From NCBI GenBank assembly GCA_018970085.1, contig JAGWXD010000015.1:1-64000 (forward strand): a stretch of DNA of 64,000 nucleotides. The letters are read 5' to 3'. The notes beneath the pieces were generated by a model. That model searched no databases. It was not told where the DNA came from and saw nothing but the letters and a program-made list of their open reading frames with translations. Of the stretch, positions 13,617 through 59,897 are shown in pieces. This stretch comes from Cyanobacteria bacterium REEB459. Its GTDB lineage: Bacteria; Cyanobacteriota; Cyanobacteriia; Phormidesmidales; Phormidesmidaceae. Positions within the stretch are counted from its first letter, which is position 1. Every line of letters begins with the position of its first letter. The translations under genes were made by a program, and so were the position numbers.

Positions 13617-14135
13617 ATGGGCAAGCAACTGATTTTCTTTCGCCATGGCAAGTCTGACTGGGAAGCCCCCAGTGGGCTAGACCAGGACCGCCCCCTGGCT
13701 CCCCGGGGAATAAGGGCAGCCCAGTCCATGGGTAAATTACTGGCTAGCCTGGATTTTTTGCCAGACCATGCCCTGACTTCACCGGCGGTGCGAGCCCGCA
13801 CCACCCTGGCCTTATCCAGGACAGCGGGGAACTGGTCCTGTACCGTAGAAGAGGTGGCCGCACTGTACGAAGCTCACCCCCAGCAGGTGCTAGGGGTAAT
13901 TCAGGGGCAAAGCGATCGCCACCAGCGCATTCTGTTGGTGGGCCACCAACCCACCTGGTCTGAGACCACCAGCCTACTGATCGGCGGTGGACAGGTGCAG
14001 ATACCCACCGCCACCCTGGTTTGCCTGGACCTACAAGTCGATCACTGGAGCCAGGTCCAGCCGGGCCAGGCCATCCTACTCTGGCTACTGCCCCCCAAAC
14101 TGTTAAGTCCTCTTTTAAATCAACTGGATCGATAA
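13617..14135 (+). CDS. sixA: phosphohistidine phosphatase SixA-like
   Basis: This is a histidine phosphatase superfamily member; SixA removes phosphate from Hpt-domain histidines in some phosphorelays. The 172-residue protein has the RHGKSDW signature with catalytic His10, the LTSPAVRARTT arginine motif and the second catalytic histidine in LLVGHQPTWS. The ATG at 13617 gives the standard MGKQLIFFRHGKSDWE start. The frame is open upstream to 13497, but that part overlaps the previous gene. A link to the Hpt domain of the CheA hybrid in this window is possible but purely inferential. Confidence 0.88.
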   Translation: MGKQLIFFRHGKSDWEAPSGLDQDRPLAPRGIRAAQSMGKLLASLDFLPDHALTSPAVRARTTLALSRTAGNWSCTVEEVAALYEAHPQQVLGVIQGQSDRHQRILLVGHQPTWSETTSLLIGGGQVQIPTATLVCLDLQVDHWSQVQPGQAILLWLLPPKLLSPLLNQLDR

Positions 14136-55930: not shown

Positions 55931-57214
55931 CTAGGCCAGGGCAGGCACTAATTCGGTGAGGTGGGCATAGAGGGGAAAGCCTTCGCACAGCGAGGCAACT
56001 CTCTTCAAGCACTGCTTTTCCATGGCTGAATCCAGGGGATTGAGGAGGCGATTGGCGATGATATCGGCAATCAGGGTAAATTCCTGGCTCCCCATACCCC
56101 GGCTGGTCATAGCCGGGGAGCCCAGGCGCAGCCCGCTGGTGACAAAGGGAGATTCAGGGTCGTAGGGCACGGTATTCTTATTGGCGGTGATATTAACGGT
56201 GCTGACCAGTTGGTCAGCCTGTTTACCGGTCATGCCAATGGAGCGCAGGTCCACCAGCACCAGATGGTTATCGGTGCCATTGGAGACAATCTTAAAGCCC
56301 CGATTTTGCAGCTGCCTAGCTAGAGCCTGGGCGTTTTCAATCACCTGGGCCGAATAGGTACGAAACTCGGGGCGCAAAGCCTCTCCAAAGGCCACGGCCT
56401 TAGCGGCAATGACATGTTCTAGGGGGCCCCCCTGGGTGCCCGGAAACACCGCCTTGTCAAATTGTTTACCCAGCTCGCTATCACGGGTCAAAATCAGTCC
56501 TCCCCGGGGGCCCCGCAGGGTTTTGTGGGTGGTGGTGGTCACGACGTCACAAAAGGGCAAGGGGTTGGGGTGTAAACCGGCGGCCACCAGTCCGGCAATG
56601 TGAGCAATATCTGCCATCAAGTAGGCGCCTACTTCATCGGCGATCGCCCTAAAGCGGCTGAAGTCAATCTGGCGAGGATAGGCTGAATAGCCACAAATAA
56701 TCAGCTTGGGACGATGTTCAAGGGCCAGGGCGCGAATTTGATCGAAGTCAAGCTGCTCTGTCTCCCGGTTGACCCCGTACTGGCAAACCTTAAACCACTT
56801 ACCAGAAACATTGACCGGGGAGCCGTGGGTGAGGTGCCCGCCATGGGATAGATCCATGCCCATGATGGTATCTCCGGGTTGGAGCAGGGCTAGAAAAACA
56901 GCGAAGTTAGCCTGGGCTCCAGAGTGGGGTTGGACGTTGGCATGGGCCGCCCCAAATAGTTGCTTAGCCCGATCAATGGCTAATTGTTCGGCTTCATCTA
57001 CAAAGCTGCACCCACCGTAGTAGCGCTTGTAGGGCAGGCCCTCAGCATACTTATTGGTCAGAACCGACCCCTGGGCCGCCATCACTGCCGCTGATGTGAA
57101 GTTTTCGCTAGCAATTAATTCCAAATGATCGCGCTGGCGTTGCAACTCCTGCTGCAAAATCTTAGCCAGTAAGGGGTCGGACTTAACTAAAAAATCAAAG
57201 TTGGTTTCAGGCAT
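55931..57214 (-). CDS. glyA: serine hydroxymethyltransferase
   Basis: The PLP enzyme interconverts serine and glycine with tetrahydrofolate. The 427-residue protein has [21 protein letters not shown], the PLP-binding Lys in [37 protein letters not shown] and [27 protein letters not shown]. Length is standard for bacteria. It is divergent from crtB over a 361-base spacer. Confidence 0.97.
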
Positions 57215-57575
57215 AGGTAAGGCTCTTGGTGATAAGGGTGAATATAACTAGGGCCACCGGCAGCCGGGCCTCAGCTGGGGCCGATAGCAGAGCAGCCTAG
57301 CCGAAACTGAAAGGCTGACTGCGGTGGGATAGGCGGGCTAAAACCCAATAAAATGGCTAGGGAAACCTAGGGCCATAGGTTTATAACAGCAGAGGCTATT
57401 AAAATCTCCAAGGTCAGTGTTACAGTCTGTAACATATAATGTAATGCCATAACTGTGCTTTTATTCTATCGGTTCAGGCAGTTTTGTCGAAATCGGGTGC
57501 AGTTGTGAGAGTCTAGTTTAGGTAAATACACCTCTAGTCAGCTTAAGGTTTACCTTATTTAGGTTTGGAATATTA
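57215..57575. other. 361-bp divergent spacer between glyA and crtB
   Basis: No gene is seen. The right half carries a well-defined crtB promoter with an adjacent palindrome (57418-57440). The left half should hold the glyA promoter. Confidence 0.6.
57418..57440 (+). promoter_or_regulatory. crtB promoter with HLR1-like palindromic operator and TATAAT
   Basis: TGTTACAGTCTGTAACA (57418-57434) is a perfect palindrome with 8-bp arms. TATAAT (57435-57440) follows directly. The pair GTTACA and GTAACA at 10-bp spacing also fits the HLR1 element read by RpaB with two mismatches. No -35 box is seen. The crtB start lies 136 bases downstream of TATAAT. Confidence 0.6.
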
Positions 57576-58502
57576 ATGCTGCAATTGACTGATGCTGCCC
57601 CCGGCCAAACTCTCTCCTCGATTGAGGAGGCCTATGAATTATGTCGTCAGGTAACGGCTAAGTATTCCAAAACCTTTTATATGGGCACCCTGCTGATGGC
57701 TCCGGCTAAGCGGCGGGCGATTTGGGCGATTTATCTGTGGTGCCGGCGAACCGACGAATTGGTCGATGGACCCCAGGCCCAGTTTACCAGCGAGGCCACC
57801 CTGGACCGCTGGGAAGCCCGGCTAGAATCCCTCTTCTCTGGTTGCCCGGTAGATGACGAAGACGTGGCCCTGGTAGATACCCTGGAGCATTTCCCCCTGG
57901 ATATTCAGCCCTTCAGGGACATGATCGCAGGGCAGAGAATGGATTTGCGCCGCTCTCGCTACGATACCTTTACCGAGCTGGAACTCTATTGTTATCGGGT
58001 GGCGGGCACGGTGGGGCTGATGTCAACCACCGTTATGGGCGTTGACCCCCAGTTAAGAACCGCACCCTGGTGTAAGCACCATACCCTTGACCCTACCCGG
58101 GAAGCGATCGCCCTCGGTATTGCCAACCAGCTCACCAATATTCTTCGAGATGTGGGAGAAGATGCCCGCCGCGGCAGAATTTACCTGCCCCTAGAGGATC
58201 TGAACCGCTTTAATTATAGTGAGGCGGATTTAATGGCCGGGGTGATCGACGATCGCTGGTGTCGCCTGATGGCCTTTGAAATTGAGCGGGCCCGAGAGTT
58301 TTACCGCGCTGCCGAGGCCGGCATTAGCCTCCTTAGTCCTGACGCCCGCTGGCCGGTGTGGGCCGCCAGCGACCTTTACAAACAAATTCTCGACGTGATT
58401 GAACGTAATCACTACGATGTGTTTAATCGCCGCGCCTACGTCCCCTCCTGGCAGAAGTTGATTACCCTGCCGGGGGCGTTGCTCAAGGCTAAGGTGTTGT
58501 AA
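57576..58502 (+). CDS. crtB: phytoene synthase
   Basis: This enzyme condenses two geranylgeranyl diphosphates to phytoene, the first carotenoid step. The 308-residue protein has both Asp-rich motifs: RRTDELVDGP and NILRDVGEDARRGRIYLP. The N-terminal AYELCRQVTAKYSKTFY and ERAREFYRAAEAGISLL are also typical. The ATG at 57576 lies in the expected position. In many cyanobacteria crtB follows the desaturase gene crtP; here it is not so, and trmFO starts six bases after the crtB stop codon on the same strand. Confidence 0.96.
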   Translation: MLQLTDAAPGQTLSSIEEAYELCRQVTAKYSKTFYMGTLLMAPAKRRAIWAIYLWCRRTDELVDGPQAQFTSEATLDRWEARLESLFSGCPVDDEDVALVDTLEHFPLDIQPFRDMIAGQRMDLRRSRYDTFTELELYCYRVAGTVGLMSTTVMGVDPQLRTAPWCKHHTLDPTREAIALGIANQLTNILRDVGEDARRGRIYLPLEDLNRFNYSEADLMAGVIDDRWCRLMAFEIERAREFYRAAEAGISLLSPDARWPVWAASDLYKQILDVIERNHYDVFNRRAYVPSWQKLITLPGALLKAKVL

Positions 58503-58508
58503 TCACTG

Positions 58509-59897
58509 ATGGTAACCTTAAGCGAACCGATTCAGGTGATTGGCGGCGGCCTGGCTGGTACTGAAGCCGCCTGGCAGATCGCCCAGGCGGGTCTACCTGT
58601 GATTCTCTGGGAAATGCGCCCCCTCACCCCATCTCCGGCCCACCATAGCGAAGAACTGGCGGAGTTGGTGTGTAGCAATTCCTTTGGCGCCCAGGCCAGC
58701 GATCGGGCCTCGGGGCTACTGCAAGAAGAGCTGCGACGCCTGGGGTCAGTGGTGATTGCCAAGGCCGACCAGCATCAGGTGCCGGCGGGAGCCGCCCTGG
58801 CAGTGGACCGGGCCCTGTTTAGCCGGGACCTGACCCTCACCCTGGAGCGCCATCCGCTGATTCAGTTACGCCGCCAGGAGGTCACCCAGATCCCCTGCGC
58901 TGGTCTGGTGGTGCTAACTACCGGCCCCCTCACAAGCCCCGCTCTGGCTGCCCAGTTGCAGCACTTTACTGGCGAAGCCTACATGAGCTTCTTTGATGCC
59001 GCCAGTCCGATCGTGGTGGGAGACAGCATTGATCGATCAGTGGCCTTTATGGCATCCCGCTACGATCGCGGTGAGGCCGCCTATTTAAATTGCCCCATGG
59101 ATCGGCAACAGTACCAACAGTTTCGTGCGGCCCTTTGTCAGGCTGAGCAGGCCGAATTAAAAGAGTTTGAACGGGAAACCGCTAAATTTTTCGAAGCCTG
59201 TCTGCCGATCGAGGAAATGGCTCGACGGGGAGAAGACACCATGCGCTACGGCCCCCTCAAACCAGTGGGGCTGTTTGATAGTCGCCTGGGGGATTTTCAA
59301 GACCCTGCCAACCGCTGCCACCGCCCCTATGCGGTGGTACAGCTGCGCCAGGAAGACCGCCACGGCCAGCTGTGGAACATGGTGGGGTTTCAAACCAATC
59401 TCCGCTGGGGTGAACAGCAGCGGGTATTTCGCCTGATTCCGGGCCTAGAAAAGGCAGAGTTTGTGCGCATGGGGGTGATGCACCGCAACACCTTTCTCAA
59501 CTCTCCCCAACTTTTGGCAGCAACCCTACAGTTCAAAACCCGCCCGCATCTGCTGGCTGCCGGGCAGTTGGTGGGTACCGAGGGCTATGGGGCGGCGGTG
59601 GCCGGTGGCTGGCTAGCGGGCACCAATGCCGCCCGTTTGGCCCTGGGGCAACCGCCCCTGAGCCTGCCTCCCACCACCATGATGGGTGCCCTGATGCACT
59701 TCATTAGCGCTTCGGAGGCAAAACATTTTCAACCCATGCCCCCTAACTTTGGGATTTTTCCGCCCTTGGAAGAAAAAATTCGCAACAAGCGACAGCGCTA
59801 TGGCGGCTATCGCGATCGCAGCCTCAGGGACTTGCAGAACTGGATTGTAGACCATGATCTGCCCCCGGTCCGGCAGCCCATGGCAGCGGTGGGATAG
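58509..59897 (+). CDS. trmFO: methylenetetrahydrofolate-tRNA-(uracil54-C5)-methyltransferase
   Basis: TrmFO makes ribothymidine 54 in the tRNA T loop using FAD and methylene-tetrahydrofolate. The 462-residue protein has an FAD-binding start ([21 protein letters not shown]), [24 protein letters not shown] with a catalytic-type Cys, and [24 protein letters not shown]. It follows crtB by six bases, so transcription is probably shared, although the functions are unrelated. Confidence 0.96.

Follow-up and report, generated by a model that had tools for sequence, protein, structure and literature searches.

Background

The closest described system is HLR1, the RpaB-bound motif, which is given as KTTACAWW-N2-KTTACAWW in the accessible part of a review (PMC13421787). 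The same part of that review names crtP (pds) among the RpaB targets of PCC 7942 and 6803, states that HLR1 close to the start site represses, and includes a table giving both RpaB and RppA for crtP; an RppA site, AAMAWCTCYYWCCCC, is reported there for crtP/crtB in PCC 6803 (PMC13421787). In Synechocystis, TTAACA-type half-sites are tabulated as HLR1 for scpB and mrgA in the part of PMC6331805 that holds Table 1, a table which is itself a motif prediction. By term search, the main text of one RpaB paper (PMC5785211) does not name crtP, and the main text of another (PMC13139465) names neither crtP nor crtB.

The palindrome and -10 box upstream of crtB

The window, i.e. the whole 64-kb stretch of DNA that was analysed, contains the following features around crtB.

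55931-57214, minus strand: glyA, divergent, across the element from crtB
57418-57434, plus strand: 17-bp element, a perfect palindrome in this genome and a TGTWACR-N3-TGCAACR direct repeat in other genera
57418-57424, plus strand: upstream half-site TGTTACA
57428-57434, plus strand: downstream half-site TGTAACA, 10 bp from the first; TGCAACR in most relatives
57435-57440, plus strand: -10 box TATAAT, 0 bp from the palindrome; kept in 25/25 Nodosilinea loci
57494-57575, plus strand: crtB leader, a second conserved block directly 5' of the start codon (12 of 25 loci aligned)
57576-58502, plus strand: crtB, phytoene synthase (NCBIfam NF045686, 558 bits)
58509-59897, plus strand: trmFO, 6 bp downstream of crtB; adjacency not conserved

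The letters at 57418-57434 are TGTTACAGTCTGTAACA, or TGTTACAG-T-CTGTAACA, symmetric about the central T. An earlier note on this DNA had described a 17-bp perfect palindrome adjoining TATAAT at 57418-57440 with no recognisable -35 box, and its coordinates were right on the first point; on the second, a sigma-70 pair scan of 57200-57600 found no plus-strand -35/-10 pair. Perfect 8+1+8 palindromes occur twice in the window, including this one, and TATAAT occurs four times on its plus strand. The second perfect 17-bp palindrome is GTTGGTGGGCCACCAAC at 13934-13950. Transcription of crtB is predicted to start at about 57446-57449. No Rfam element was found in 57000-58000 at the gathering threshold.

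Conservation of the element in Nodosilinea

When 57 genomes (the source genome included) were searched, crtB was detected in 55, with one weak match. The genus sample consisted of 26 Nodosilinea genomes and gave 25 loci with crtB, the source locus among them. TGTTAC-N4-TGYAAC-ATATAAT (TGTTAC-N5-GYAACATATAAT) was found upstream of crtB in all 25 loci, at a variable distance of 158 to 368 bp from the start codon. In a genome-wide search the element together with its -10 box was present exactly in 25 of the 26 genomes; G014, the sole genome lacking it, gave no crtB match either. The commonest reading among the Nodosilinea relatives is TGTTACGGATTGCAACATATAAT, a form with a palindrome symmetry of 5/8. 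Since most relatives read so, the perfect palindrome is peculiar to the source genome among the 25.

Distribution of the element among cyanobacteria

Conservation in related genomes, a point that the earlier note had raised, extends from the 25/25 same-genus loci across the class. The general form is TGTAACR-N3-TGCAACR-TATAAT, a direct repeat with a 10-bp period that typically lies before crtP (phytoene desaturase). When 291 class genomes were searched with at most one mismatch, 50 genomes from 27 of 130 genera had one match each; the reversed control pattern gave 2 matches in the same genomes. Thirty of the 50 matches were listed by locus, and 29 of these lie before crtP (reading frame MRVAIAG...), 55-273 bp from its start. 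One such frame was identified as 15-cis-phytoene desaturase by NCBIfam TIGR02731. The odd locus out (L139) looks like a chance match. The other 20 matches consist of 12 from Nodosilinea, five before crtP, two before crtB (G043 and G091) and one judged from its coordinates alone (G032).

For a count that does not select by the element, every crtP gene above the family cut-off in 155 class genomes was taken (131 genes), and the 400 bp upstream of each gene (shorter at contig ends) were scored against a 23-position pattern. Scores of at least 19/23 were observed for 61 of the 131 upstream regions, from 18 of 30 families, with a perfect score in 27; the maximum in 2,620 shuffled upstreams (20 each) was 18, where the pattern was partly derived from the genomes it scored and the control was mononucleotide shuffling. 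The remaining 70 regions scored below 19, including every member of families f2 (15/15), f16 (8/8) and f3 (4/4). The same repeats are found with the -10 box one base off in f18, f28 and two members of f26, and with an altered -10 box in f5.

Over 45 genera the invariant positions are G2, T3, A5, G12, A14, A15 and the first TA of the -10 box. With one site per genus, mean paired-column identity was 0.73 for the direct and 0.46 for the inverted arrangement, a comparison that leans somewhat towards the former because the sites were picked with a direct-repeat-shaped pattern. What has been conserved is a tandem repeat that abuts the -10 box, and the palindrome is incidental; as a functional unit it was rejected by this class-wide comparison.

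By pattern script, 11 of the 80 relatives' crtB loci lack the element. Three of them are too short upstream, another six reach 17-18 of 23 (within the shuffle range), one scores 19/23 and one 15. When the main text of the open literature was searched for the element strings, no cyanobacterial title appeared among the matches listed, which says little.

Absence of crtP and position of the element before crtB

No crtP over the family cut-off was found in any of the 25 Nodosilinea genomes searched, and tblastn revealed no crtP remnant at the 25 loci (best E-value 2.2). A CrtI-family protein over the cut-off is encoded in 24 of the 25 genomes, one of them as a fragment with stop codons; that of the source genome (G000:C102:8777-10075) scores 537 bits. 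The CrtI-family model also matches the crtP-bearing control Synechococcus elongatus, so a match alone is no proof of a phytoene desaturase. Judged from gene content, the CrtI-family protein of Nodosilinea would stand in place of the CrtP-type desaturase.

In the family-mates that keep crtP (L215, L216 and L221) the gene order is glyA, element, crtP, crtB, whereas in all 18 named Nodosilinea loci it is glyA, element, crtB. In Nodosilinea the element would stand before crtB because crtP is absent there, and presumably was lost in this genus. The element also lies directly before crtB in two f11 genomes without crtP over the cut-off (G043 and G091). In these two, across the element from crtB, there is a reading frame that resembles crtP weakly over a short stretch (E-values of about 3e-6 and 7e-6) and may encode another desaturase. 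Judged from local synteny only, the element precedes crtB without crtP in Phormidesmis (L271) and Calothrix (L259, L265) as well.

Six Leptothoe/Adonisia loci with no adjacent crtP (L217, L219, L220, L223, L224 and L243) keep TGTAAC and TATAAT, and their second half-site has decayed; singly, none of their scores (17-18) exceeds the shuffles.

Comparison with HLR1 and other known motifs

In the HLR1 register GTTACAGT-CT-GTAACATA (57419-57436), two of the 16 specified bases are mismatched, the number that the earlier note had counted. The window has two sites that fit HLR1 as well as this, and ten 64-kb first-order Markov sequences had none. The strict consensus is missed throughout the genus, as the better strand has two mismatches in 24 of 25 loci and three in the other. 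This strand is the plus strand in the source genome and the minus strand in the relatives, in which the plus strand shows 3-4 mismatches.

The likeness to HLR1 consists of tandem half-sites with a 10-bp period (by the pattern-picked 45-genus comparison above), a predicted core-promoter location, a gene encoding RpaB in this genome (NF045944, 360 bits, cut-off 330) and the entry of crtP as an RpaB target in the accessible part of the review (PMC13421787). HLR1 positions comprise the core promoter at about -38 to +23, or -66 to -45, and the element would be at about -29 to -13 given a predicted start near 57447. It differs from HLR1 in its half-sites, TGTWACR and TGYAACR, the second of which departs from KTTACA, in abutting TATAAT, and in having close to one copy of the full element per genome. 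Since the published consensus is missed, we class the element as HLR1-like and not as a proven HLR1 member. The sites tabulated for Synechocystis scpB and mrgA share the third-position A seen here in GTAACA, but they have no GCAACR half and belong to other genes (PMC6331805, Table 1). Of the HLR1-like palindrome that had been proposed, the resemblance to HLR1 holds, and the palindromic symmetry is not the conserved feature: HLR1 sites are direct repeats, and across genera the direct arrangement is what has been kept.

The RppA site acts on the same genes, crtP and crtB, according to the accessible part of the review (PMC13421787). The RppA motif was not found upstream of crtB in 57151-57580, where the best fit had 4 of 15 positions mismatched. 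OmpR-type DNA-binding domains occur in 10 proteins of the source genome, and none of the six of these that were scanned reached the RppA model cut-off.

NtcA sites have the form GTA-N8-TAC and CrtJ/PpsR sites the form TGT-N12-ACA. At 57418-57434 the spacing differs from both, with GTT-N9-AAC and TGT-N11-ACA, respectively.

Related repeats elsewhere in Nodosilinea

A census of 12 Nodosilinea genomes with the pattern TGTTRC-N5-GYAACA, a pattern chosen regardless of light genes, found 40 sites, and the reversed pattern found 4. Twelve sites are at crtB, 12 are of the hisF type, six lie before hli and 10 elsewhere. Among these last ten, three represent one site in three genomes, which is within a reading frame in the one locus read (L091), and seven are single. 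In the 9 of 12 genomes read, the hisF-type site lies after hisF and is followed by a small membrane protein gene; the other three were assigned by site sequence alone. This small membrane protein gene (L033, L059-L063, L089, L090, L094, L099, L104 and L105) has no Pfam or NCBIfam match. With the palindromic repeat upstream, it is a candidate high-light gene.

The palindromic form was also observed at hli, upstream of 15 of the 30 loci that were scanned out of 47 matches; in the remaining loci of these 30 the second halves range from GTTTACA-like to GCAACATA-like, and the hli variants GTTAAGATTTGCAACATA have TTTGCAACATA in common with the crtP elements. None of the 30 hli upstreams (L106-L135, of 47 matches) has a site with two or fewer HLR1 mismatches, so RpaB control of these hli genes would likewise be by analogy. 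The deviation from the consensus may reflect a lineage-specific RpaB site.

Before sigD, a site with at most two HLR1 mismatches was found in 23 of 24 genus loci, with three mismatches in the source genome. Relative to possible -10 boxes, the sigD repeats are placed differently from those at crtB. A reading frame of 48 residues separates the promoter site of sigD from the gene (G000:C58:20128). At crtI, a GTAACA- or GTAAAC-type half-site is present about 15-25 bp before the start in all six loci read of the 8 listed, together with a looser partner half-site 9-10 bp further upstream; the crtI sites are weaker evidence.

Proposed function and alternative explanations

We consider it likely that TGTAACR-N3-TGCAACR-TATAAT is a widespread, non-canonical operator for RpaB (or a sister OmpR regulator), fused to the -10 box, which controls the entry into carotenoid synthesis and is kept before the gene that opens the operon, i.e. 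before crtB where crtP is missing. For the locus studied here, we estimate a probability of about 0.6 that the element acts, within the promoter, as an RpaB operator of an HLR1-like kind, driving crtB where crtP is absent. The RpaB reading of the earlier note gains from the conserved promoter element, the RpaB gene, the hli and sigD sites and the listing of crtP as a target in the accessible part of PMC13421787, while the missed consensus speaks against it. By analogy, the element is most likely a putative light-stress switch.

In most crtP-bearing cyanobacteria sampled that have the element, it would serve as the promoter/operator opening a crtP-crtB operon; in Nodosilinea, where crtP is absent and presumably lost, it would drive crtB. 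The two half-sites of the form TGYAACR are spaced by 10 bp and reach TATAAT directly, with no -35 box; together they would be bound in tandem by a dimer of the OmpR family. RpaB is the most likely such protein, and its binding is proposed on the grounds given above. In low light, RpaB on the site would block RNA polymerase, by analogy with published HLR1 sites at about -38 to +23; in high light it would leave the site and crtB would be induced. The same analogy suggests repression as the direction of control.

The element with its -10 box (23 bp) occurs about once per genome, unlike a broad regulon motif, and a dedicated factor is therefore possible. Thus, the operator could belong to a different crtP/crtB-specific protein, either another OmpR-family member such as RpaA or one not yet recognised. 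This explanation is possible but rather unlikely: it would fit the single copy, with 29 of the 30 listed loci before crtP or crtB, the unlikeness of the GTAAC/GCAAC half-sites to KTTACA, and the choice of 10 OmpR-type proteins in this genome, but the hli and sigD promoters of the same genus carry graded intermediates between both forms, and of the two regulators that the accessible review table names for crtP, RpaB and RppA (PMC13421787), the latter has no motif here. A core promoter without any operator, in which an unusual sigma factor would use the repeats in place of the -35 box, agrees with the constant distance between the repeats and TATAAT at the Nodosilinea loci and with the lacking -35 box. 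We regard it as improbable, because repeats of 10 bp with the nearer one touching the -10 box clash with a 16-18 bp sigma-70 spacer and because the sigD repeats are placed differently relative to possible -10 boxes.

It is very improbable that the palindrome is the site of a repressor which binds inverted repeats and is peculiar to this genome or genus. The 8+1+8 symmetry is indeed perfect in the source genome and palindromic forms recur after hisF and before half of the scanned hli loci (15/30, of 47 matches), but symmetry falls to 5/8 in the common Nodosilinea form and the 45-genus mean favours the direct arrangement (0.73 against 0.46). As for a chance palindrome beside a chance TATAAT, nothing beyond the small size of the site speaks for it, and it was ruled out by the 25/25 same-genus loci and the class-wide conservation, which leaves it next to no probability. 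Returning to the RpaB operator, the earlier note was correct in its observation and largely right in direction, and it gave too much weight to the palindrome and to trmFO.

The new points are that a promoter element of crtP/crtB is widespread, that it is built as a direct repeat, and that it stands before crtB when crtP is missing. The element provides a sequence handle on how light may switch carotenoid synthesis in cyanobacteria of at least 18 of the 30 sampled families that bear crtP, and the crtP-less lineages, which retain the switch before crtB, represent a natural experiment. As the half-sites are unlike the published HLR1 consensus, genome scans with the strict consensus would miss the crtP/crtB promoter.

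Downstream gene and leader of crtB

Co-transcription of trmFO with crtB had also been suggested. In the source genome trmFO begins 6 bp after crtB, but it was not found in any of the 80 relatives' crtB loci (74 with at least 1000 bp beyond crtB and six with less), and it was rejected as a conserved partner of crtB. In the four relatives' loci inspected, reading frames other than trmFO follow crtB. In the crtB leader (57494-57575; 12 of 25 loci aligned), evidence of RNA structure is weak, with two-sided change in 3 of 27 predicted pairs and a covariation term of -0.59; mean identity within Nodosilinea is 88 %.
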